DNA of 64,000 nucleotides. Origin: Candidatus Lutacidiplasma silvani (GTDB taxonomy: Archaea > Thermoplasmatota > Thermoplasmata > Lutacidiplasmatales > UBA184). Made by a program: the position numbers and the translations under genes. Positions 45,320-56,463 of this stretch are shown in pieces (within the stretch, counting starts at the first letter, position 1; each line of letters begins with the position of its first letter). The notes below the pieces were generated by a model. That model saw only the letters and a program-made list of their open reading frames with translations, ran no database searches and was not told the origin of the DNA. The stretch lies in contig JAKIVZ010000008.1 of assembly GCA_022750295.1 (NCBI GenBank), positions 27,113-91,112 of the forward strand, written 5' to 3'.

Positions 45320-46162
45320 ATGCCGTATATCTCCGTCGACGACCCGTTGCCGAACCGGTGCGTTGCGCTCGCTACGAGAAACCCGGCGCTCTATGCCGAT
45401 CTCGCGGCGTGGCTCCGGGAGCAACGTGTGCCGACCGTCTCGGTGTGGCCGGGCGACCGGCTCCCATCGGGGGTGGCGGCGGTCCTGACCTCCGAGGAGG
45501 AGGTCGGCACGATCCGGCACGCGCGGATCCTTCCGGTCACCGCGGAGGGGGACCGTACCGCACTGCTCGCCGCCGTACGGCACGCTCTCGGAACGGGGTC
45601 GGCCCGGGACGAGCTCATCGTCGGCATCGACCCCGGCCCGCGACCGGGGTTCGCGGTCCTCGCGGGGGACCGGCCCCTCGCGGAAGGTTCCCTCCCGGCC
45701 CCCGAGGACGCGGGCCGTCTCGGGGCGCACCTGCGACGCCGGTTTCCCGAGAACCCCATTCGGTTTCGGGTGGGCCGGGGCGACCACGTGTGTCGCGACC
45801 GGATCGTCAACTCCCTCGTCCCGCTCCGTCGCCCGGTCGAACTGGTCGACGAGCGCGGGACGACCCCGCGCGGTCACCGGCGGCCCCGCGACGCCGCGGC
45901 CGCCCGGGCGATCGCCCGGAGCACCGGACCGCTGATCCGCGGCGAGGCGTCGATCCGGATCACGCCCGGGGAGGTCGCGAATCTCCAGCGTCTCAGCCGG
46001 GAAGGGAGCGGCGGATCGTTCACGATCCCGCGGGCGCTCGCCCAGAGGGTCCTCCGGGGCGAGATCTCCCTTCCCGAGGCGCTGGCCGAGGGCGAGGCCC
46101 GGTACCACTCGCGCCCGACGCCCCCGTCGCAAGCGCGGTCTTCGCGGGCCGAACCGTCTTAA
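45320..46162 (+). CDS. RNase H-fold (RuvC-like) protein, unknown function
   Basis: 280 residues from the ATG at 45320. ELIVGIDPGPRPGFAVLAG near residue 100 is the first strand with a catalytic-type aspartate, and HRRPRDAAAARAIARSTG near 190 matches the RuvC/YqgF final acidic motif. A helical C-terminus (RVLRGEISLPEALAEGEARY) follows. A junction-resolving or RNA nuclease role is possible; no close named family was recognised. Its start lies within the promoter of the divergent zinc-ribbon gene. Confidence 0.7.
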   Translation: MPYISVDDPLPNRCVALATRNPALYADLAAWLREQRVPTVSVWPGDRLPSGVAAVLTSEEEVGTIRHARILPVTAEGDRTALLAAVRHALGTGSARDELIVGIDPGPRPGFAVLAGDRPLAEGSLPAPEDAGRLGAHLRRRFPENPIRFRVGRGDHVCRDRIVNSLVPLRRPVELVDERGTTPRGHRRPRDAAAARAIARSTGPLIRGEASIRITPGEVANLQRLSREGSGGSFTIPRALAQRVLRGEISLPEALAEGEARYHSRPTPPSQARSSRAEPS

Positions 46163-55899: not shown

Positions 55900-56043
55900 C
55901 TCCCGTTCCAGCCGGTCGAGCAGCTCGTCGGCCGCCTCGGGGGTCAGGGAGAGGATCTCCTCCGGGGTCGGCGGCGGGGCGCCGCCGGGGAGGGCGCTAG
56001 GCAGAGCCCCCCCCGGCGCGAACGGCGAATGCGGGGGGCCGGA

Positions 56044-56075
56044 GTTTCCGCGCGCCGGTCGGGGACCGGCGCGCG
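56044..56075 (-). other. T-loop intron (59/60) of tRNA-Leu(UAG)
   Basis: 32-base intron between TTCAAA and T-CCGGC. Its core is an 11-bp perfect stem GCGCGCCGGTC-CCC-GACCGGCGCGC. Bulges AAC and ACT flank a central helix TTCA/GGAA (three pairs plus an A-G mismatch), a relaxed bulge-helix-bulge. Confidence 0.82.
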
Positions 56076-56123
56076 TTTGAACCGGCGCATGCCCTAGGCA
56101 ACAGGGTCCTAAGCCCTGCCTCG

Positions 56124-56150
56124 AAAGCCCCGGCCGACGACCGGACCGGA
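56124..56150 (-). other. D-loop intron of tRNA-Leu(UAG)
   Basis: 27-base intron between GGCCAA and CGAGG. Outer helix CTC/GAG, central 4-bp helix GGCC/GGCT, bulges AAT and TTC, and intron stem CCGG...CCGG give a complete bulge-helix-bulge. The exact boundaries depend on cutting between the second and third bulge bases. Confidence 0.75.
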
Positions 56151-56207
56151 TTGGCCGAGCTGGAGCACCCCCGCATCGTGACGCCGCTCGCGCGGCAAGA
56201 GGAAGAG

Positions 56208-56314
56208 TAGCCCCGGCAGGAGTTTCGGCCCCCGGCAGTACCCCGCCGGCCGGCGTTCGAACCTGCGTCGCGAGATCCAGAGTCTCGCATGATTGGCCAC
56301 TACACTACGGGGCT
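56208..56314 (-). tRNA. tRNA-Gln(CUG) with T-loop intron
   Basis: Exon 1 reads AGCCCCG-TA-GTGTAGTGGCCAATCATGC, anticodon arm CGAGA-CTCTGGA-TCTCG (anticodon CTG), then GCAGG-TTCGAA. Exon 2 is T-CCTGC-CGGGGCT plus discriminator A. Acceptor AGCCCCG/CGGGGCT and T stem GCAGG/CCTGC are both perfect, but only after removing 34 bases, giving a 73-nt tRNA. Read straight through, the T stem cannot form. CGTTTATGAACG about 25-35 bases upstream is the promoter. CCA is not encoded. Confidence 0.92.
56222..56255 (-). other. T-loop intron (59/60) of tRNA-Gln(CUG)
   Basis: 34-base intron. The bulge-helix-bulge is textbook: exon helix GCAGG/CCTGC, bulge ACT, central 4-bp helix TTCG/CGAA, bulge AAC, then intron helix GCC/GGC. 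Cutting between bases two and three of each bulge restores a TTCGAAT T loop. Confidence 0.88.
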
Positions 56315-56463
56315 ACGACCGACCGAGCGACGGGTCGTTCATAAACGTTGCCCGACGGGGCCATTCGAACCCGCCCGGTCGACGGCCGCGACGCCGTCGC
56401 TGATGCGAGAAATCAATTATACTCCGGCTCGGTCGCTCCTCCGATCCGAGCGCCGGGGAACGG

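Follow-up and report, generated by a model that had tools for sequence, protein, structure and literature searches.

A tRNA-Leu(UAG) gene of a Thermoplasmata archaeon with two predicted protein-spliced introns in its D loop and T loop

Can a tRNA gene that is interrupted twice, at positions other than the canonical one, be a working gene, and what would splice it? The question is raised by a locus in the 64,000-nucleotide stretch of Candidatus Lutacidiplasma silvani DNA analyzed here (the window; 70% GC), which belongs to a genome assembly of 29 contigs and 2.10 Mb. ARAGORN reported no tRNA in the unspliced gene, nor with one intron taken out. With both introns removed, it called tRNA-Leu(tag), 86 nt long with anticodon UAG. 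The preliminary description had held that both must go before a tRNA appears, and this comparison of the three forms bore it out; the coordinates, strand, anticodon, intron lengths of 27 and 32 nt, 59/60 T-loop site, and 86-nt product given there were all exact. The parts of the gene are as follows.

56030 to 56174, minus strand: pre-tRNA-Leu(UAG), 145 nt with the discriminator A
56151 to 56174, minus strand: exon 1, comprising the 5' strands of the acceptor and D stems and the D loop until ..GGCCAA (placed from the empty-site D arm of relatives)
56124 to 56150, minus strand: D-loop intron, 27 nt, TCCGGTCCGGTCGTCGGCCGGGGCTTT
56076 to 56123, minus strand: exon 2, comprising the 3' strand of the D stem, the anticodon arm (loop CTTAGGA), the variable arm, the 5' strand of the T stem, and TTCAAA
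56044 to 56075, minus strand: T-loop intron at position 59/60, 32 nt, CGCGCGCCGGTCCCCGACCGGCGCGCGGAAAC
56030 to 56043, minus strand: exon 3, comprising T60, the 3' strands of the T and acceptor stems, and the discriminator A

From 56174 to 56030, the minus strand reads GCGGGGG TG CTCCAGCTCGGCCAA [TCCGGTCCGGTCGTCGGCCGGGGCTTT] CGAGG CAGGGCTTAGGACCCTG TTGCCTAGGGCATGC GCCGGTTCAAA [CGCGCGCCGGTCCCCGACCGGCGCGCGGAAAC] T CCGGC CCCCCGC A, where the outer square brackets enclose the two introns.

Neither insert lies at the canonical position 37/38, and removal of both restores a standard tRNA. At the exon-intron joints, both can be drawn as a bulge-helix-bulge (BHB), i.e., two 3-nt bulges around a 4-bp helix. 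For the D intron, an outer CTC:GAG helix is followed by a central helix of four pairs (GGCC:GGCT), the bulges AAT and TTC, and an intron helix CCGG:CCGG. For the T intron, the T stem is followed by T54T55C56A57 opposite GGAA of the intron, where the first three positions form standard pairs and the fourth is A57.G. Its bulges are AAC and ACT, and its intron hairpin measures 11 to 12 bp. The minimum-energy fold of the single Leu(UAG) sequence from the window did not show the central BHB helices. Their support is instead comparative and comes from compensatory changes in the intron helices and from empty sites in relatives.

Other tools were of limited help with this gene. The Rfam tRNA model did not detect it in the window or genome search, and permissive Rfam thresholds gave only chance matches at the locus (a weak tRNA-Sec and microRNA families). 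Run on the 64-kb window, an intron-tolerant tRNA finder custom-written for this analysis made five candidate calls: Ala, Leu CAA, Leu UAG, Gln CUG, and an alternative form of Gln that overlaps it. It made none in six shuffled windows. Two other kinds of interrupted gene were rejected. Group I introns in tRNA genes are self-splicing RNAs of hundreds of bases; the inserts here measure 27 and 32 nt, and the window and region held no Rfam match to such introns. A split or permuted gene was ruled out by the exons, which all stand in order inside 145 nt.

We searched 106 genomes of the order, mostly metagenome-assembled genomes (MAGs), with a pattern for the exon 2 region and found Leu(UAG) in 89. 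Ninety genes of the family could be compared; 76 had both introns (a count that includes the window gene and, for two MAGs, a second copy), 7 had the D intron only, 2 had the T intron only, and 5 had neither. By genus, both introns were found in g1 (65 genes), g156 (5), and g3 (6); the two T-only genes also belonged to g1, the D-only genes to g4 (1), g5 (3), and g6 (3), and the five intron-free genes to g2. The exons beside the T insert were identical in 78 of 78 T-intron genes, while 77 of the introns were distinct; the D exons varied little, with nine near-identical forms flanking 81 distinct introns. Pairing in the central D helix reached 97 to 100% per position. In the central T helix, positions 54, 55, and 56 were paired in 77/77 (G-U counted), with A57 opposite G in 73. 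The same held for 52 T-loop introns drawn from many tRNAs, of which 51 to 52 were paired at positions 54 to 56; at the fourth position, tRNAs with G57 formed G-C, and those with A57 mostly had A.G and hardly ever a U opposite.

Intron helices were compared with reshuffled halves, giving z values of 11.4 (T) and 15.0 (D). Covariation in the D set was 0.388, versus 0.140 when shuffled and at most 0.109 with the partners slid, and seven of the eight helix-3 pairs varied on both sides. The T set reached 0.206, versus 0.127 shuffled and at most 0.123 slid. The sequences share kinship, and the shuffle counts are thus not to be read as probabilities. As judged from these alignments, some 80 differing introns keep the predicted BHB through compensatory changes while the exons hardly change. 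Intron lengths in Leu(UAG) moved in steps of three (T, 32, 35, and 38; D, 24, 27, and 30) with few exceptions, in genus g1; shared ancestry may account for this.

In relatives that lack one or both introns, the predicted joints can be seen as natural empty sites. An intron-free D arm, CTCCAGCTCGGCCAACGAGG, in G216 (L184) and G416 (L246) is exactly what joining the window gene's D exons would give, and the intron-free T arm GCCGGTTCAAATCCGGC of genus g2 and others corresponds just as exactly to its T exons once joined. These matches fix both joints, including the register in the T loop, which the sequence of one gene leaves open. Together with the covariation of the intron helices, they support what had been proposed for the window gene, namely a Thermoplasmatota tRNA-Leu(UAG) with a BHB at each of its two introns. 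In the sister family f3, one Leu(UAG) gene carried a 13-nt T insert.

A second interrupted gene lies directly upstream of Leu(UAG), separated by a 33-nt spacer.

56208 to 56314, minus strand: pre-tRNA-Gln(CUG)
56222 to 56255, minus strand: T-loop (59/60) intron of tRNA-Gln(CUG), 34 nt (93.8 bits with model R1)
56340 to 56345, minus strand: possible box A, TTTATG, its end lying 25 nt upstream of tRNA-Gln (read by eye)

The Gln intron has a full strict BHB with four central pairs (TTCG:CGAA) and bulges AAC and ACT. ARAGORN misplaced the end of this gene at 56240, inside the intron. A strict search placed Gln(CUG) directly upstream of Leu(UAG) in 81 of 91 parsed genes, and all 81 of these Gln genes had the T-loop intron; model R1 additionally matched beside Leu in three genus g2 genomes. 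By eye, the Gln-Leu spacer held no motif resembling box A. With a candidate box A before Gln and none in the spacer, the pair may be cotranscribed.

Across the genome, Rfam, pattern, and model searches combined with the intron-tolerant finder gave about 46 tRNA genes, with 23 introns in 21 of them: 14 in the T loop, 5 in the D loop, and 4 canonical. T-loop introns at 59/60 were present in Leu UAG, Gln CUG, Gly UCC, Arg UCU, Arg UCG, Glu CUC, Ala GGC, Ser GCU, Ser GGA, Ser CGA, Asp GUC, Lys UUU, Asn GUU, and His GUG. D-loop introns were found in Leu UAG, Lys UUU, an initiator-type Met CAU, Arg GCG, and Pro UGG; the BHB was examined individually for Leu UAG, and the other four were counted by position. 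The canonical 37/38 introns belonged to one CAU tRNA, Tyr GUA, Leu UAA, and Trp CCA. About one-third of the tRNA genes thus have non-canonical introns, and about 46% have an intron of any kind. The pair in Leu(UAG), put forward as unexpected for Thermoplasmatota, does consist of two non-canonical BHB introns, but it is no isolated oddity in this genome. A second intact tRNA-Leu(UAG) gene had been named as the finding that would speak against splicing at this locus. None was found; the other Leu genes (GAG, CAG, CAA, and UAA) supply each of the other four anticodons, and the window gene is the sole one found for codon CUA. As the genome is about 91% complete, a second intact copy could go unseen.

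Several further observations came from these searches. The assembly breaks within tRNA-Ser(CGA) (end of C8, start of C15), whose 3' half, with the T-loop intron, lies on C15; we assembled this gene from the two contig ends. In addition to a normal tRNA-Phe(GAA), the genome has an odd tRNA-like gene at G000:C3:12100-12184, whose variable arm is long and whose anticodon appears to be GAA. The tRNA-Trp(CCA) gene at G000:C5:166192-166272 and upstream has a long canonical intron that seems to contain a C/D box guide RNA, an arrangement known from other archaea. A pattern match at C6:1527 was discarded after no tRNA could be assembled around it, and an ARAGORN call of tRNA-Pro(AGG) at 45458 to 45556 of the window had no Rfam support and is probably false. 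Positions 410 to 518 of the window, minus strand, matched the TPP riboswitch (RF00059; 63.8 bits).

One position and one end sequence common to 14 tRNAs of a single genome could be the mark of a mobile family of introns able to move as copies from one tRNA gene to another, a proposal already made for Thermoproteales. This account concerns the origin of the inserts and is compatible with their being spliced. We regard it as unlikely: outside their constrained ends, the 14 introns were no more similar to one another than shuffled ones, and the same isoacceptors bear introns in different genera, with the Leu-Gln place kept, which fits vertical inheritance. An old transposition whose traces have since faded could still lie behind the pattern.

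The design extends well beyond this genome. When a pattern ending in GAAACTCC was used at first, T-loop introns seemed to be limited to the organism's own family; this was wrong, as those of sister families have the ending GAAAAT. Both T-loop and D-loop introns occur in two such families, f2 and f3, with ends differing from those of the own family. We then ran a covariance model of T-loop-intron tRNAs on 121 genomes of the class Thermoplasmata. All 20 of the strong matches that we fetched were tRNAs with T-loop inserts of 20 to 33 nt and the YGAA/GGAA ending design; as they were picked by high score, they demonstrate presence and not frequency. One came from f2 and 19 from f4, f11, f12, f18, f20, f56, f58, f59, and f60. 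They comprised Arg UCU, Arg CCG, Lys, Met CAU, Glu UUC, and Pro GGG, some in single-contig genomes. T-loop introns of this design are therefore present in ten further families, at least eleven in all. In the 121-genome search, no strong score came from f5 or f6; to judge from the length of its EndA, f6 may be the Thermoplasmataceae. The sister-family genome G312 has 13-nt T-loop inserts without an inner helix, a relaxed motif, so the class is not uniform. A literature search, which most subscription journals lay outside, returned nothing on non-canonical tRNA introns in Thermoplasmata, and the main text describing Candidatus Lutacidiplasmatales MAGs AcS13-54, AcS1-3, and AcS5-58 from Scottish acid soils (PMC9287336) nowhere mentions introns. 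tRNA databases may already list some of these genes.

Both an EndA endonuclease and the tRNA ligase RtcB are encoded in the genome. EndA, encoded at G000 C10:32665-33726, is a single 353-amino-acid chain of two units, most similar in sequence to archaeal EndAs that are homodimeric or fused, with the active-site Tyr, His, and Lys in its second unit; it is 81 to 85% identical to the EndAs of AcS13-54, AcS1-3, and AcS5-58. Its loop, HGSRIGERLELS, has the same length as that of the Archaeoglobus fulgidus enzyme. In PDB entry 3p1y, one loop of the A. fulgidus EndA is longer by ten residues, consistent with the published chimera bearing the crenarchaea-specific loop (PMC6379350). The inserted loop is absent from this EndA and from those of 12 intron-bearing relatives of 11 families, and each of these genomes, like the present one, yielded only one EndA locus, encoding a two-unit fusion. 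The EndA found here thus has no crenarchaeal-type loop and does not match the Thermoproteota-type enzyme, an (alpha-beta)2 EndA with that loop. The likely cutter of the introns is a fused homodimeric (alpha-prime-2) EndA without a broad-specificity loop. In Ferroplasma, of the same class, the homodimeric alpha-prime-2 EndA is known to cleave minimal BHBs at 30°C (PMC8707768).

Non-canonical introns are usually tied to (alpha-beta)2 or epsilon2 enzymes (PMC4090602, PMC6379350), and together with the relaxed inserts of G312, this would suit a genuine Leu(UAG) gene with inserts that depend on a crenarchaeal-type EndA of broad specificity for relaxed BHBs; the missing part of the genome, for example, might encode such an enzyme. 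We think this very improbable, given the one loop-less EndA locus in all 13 genomes and the near-strict BHBs of the window gene, which should not require such an enzyme. Weakest of all is a decayed, unspliced pseudogene with two chance insertions, which would account for the failure of ARAGORN and the Rfam tRNA model to recognize the unspliced gene but is scarcely credible for the sole gene found for anticodon UAG, with exons conserved across about 90 genomes and inserts that pair with compensatory changes and occupy one exact joint.

We are thus highly confident that this tRNA-Leu(UAG) gene works and is essential, and that proteins splice out its two BHB introns, which lie at non-canonical positions; this reading is drawn from comparative sequence data. 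Counting against it are the mostly non-standard A.G at the fourth central T-helix pair of A57 tRNAs and the central helices missing from the computed fold. From the motifs and the encoded enzymes, we infer how the introns would be cut, how the exons would be joined, and in which order. In the precursor, each intron would form a hairpin flanked by a near-strict BHB, with 3-nt bulges around a four-position central helix; in each bulge, homodimeric EndA would cut behind nucleotide 2, and the exons would be ligated by RtcB. At the T loop, the tRNA half of the central helix would be the invariant T54-T55-C56-R57, with the intron giving the complementary YGAA or GGAA immediately before its final two bases. 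A single simple intron design would then suit any tRNA, since a hairpin ending in GAA plus two bases would suffice. That the tRNA half of the 59/60 motif is invariant in nearly all tRNAs would explain the preference for this position.

Comparable introns occur in other archaea. Thermoproteales, e.g., Pyrobaculum with up to three per gene, likewise have short BHB introns at non-canonical sites in many tRNA genes (PMC4033280, PMC8450103), but they belong to a different phylum, their EndA is of the (alpha-beta)2 type and carries the crenarchaeal loop, and their BHBs are often relaxed, as opposed to a loop-less alpha-prime-2-type EndA and near-strict motifs here. The present lineage is known from acid soils. 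The contrast with Thermoproteota drawn in the preliminary description therefore lies in the enzyme as well as the lineage, the BHBs being close to the strict 3-4-3 form. Korarchaeum cryptofilum, the only archaeon with alpha2 EndA and non-canonical introns according to PMC4033280, shares that combination with our organism, but its EndA reportedly shares the crenarchaea-specific loop, unlike the Thermoplasmata EndAs tested here. Among Euryarchaeota, Methanothermobacter thermautotrophicus and Methanopyrus kandleri also have multi-intron tRNAs (PMC4033280); these are isolated cases, whereas here the trait recurs class-wide, with the 59/60 design in about one-third of the organism's own tRNA genes. 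Soil Asgard archaea (Atabeyarchaeia and Freyarchaeia) are similar in their unexpectedly many non-canonical introns (PMC11291895); they are of a different phylum and have introns in 92 to 95% of genes, compared to about 46% here.

Some tRNA finders overlook such genes or set wrong ends. The roughly 80 natural variants of one intron pair, with their empty sites, make a ready set for tests of EndA recognition. According to reviews, tRNA introns are few in Euryarchaeota whose EndA is of the alpha4 or alpha2 type, occur singly, and lie at 37/38 only, and it was a change of enzyme that made other positions available (PMC4090602, PMC4033280). The present lineage breaks this link between enzyme and position, with many non-canonical introns and a narrow-type enzyme. 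Intron position and BHB relaxation, usually lumped, come apart here. Near-strict BHBs make a broad-specificity enzyme unnecessary, and we consider it probable that much of Thermoplasmata splices T-loop and D-loop introns with a loop-less homodimeric EndA, the introns bringing a near-complete BHB on T54-T55-C56, so that their spread to new positions would have needed no change of enzyme.
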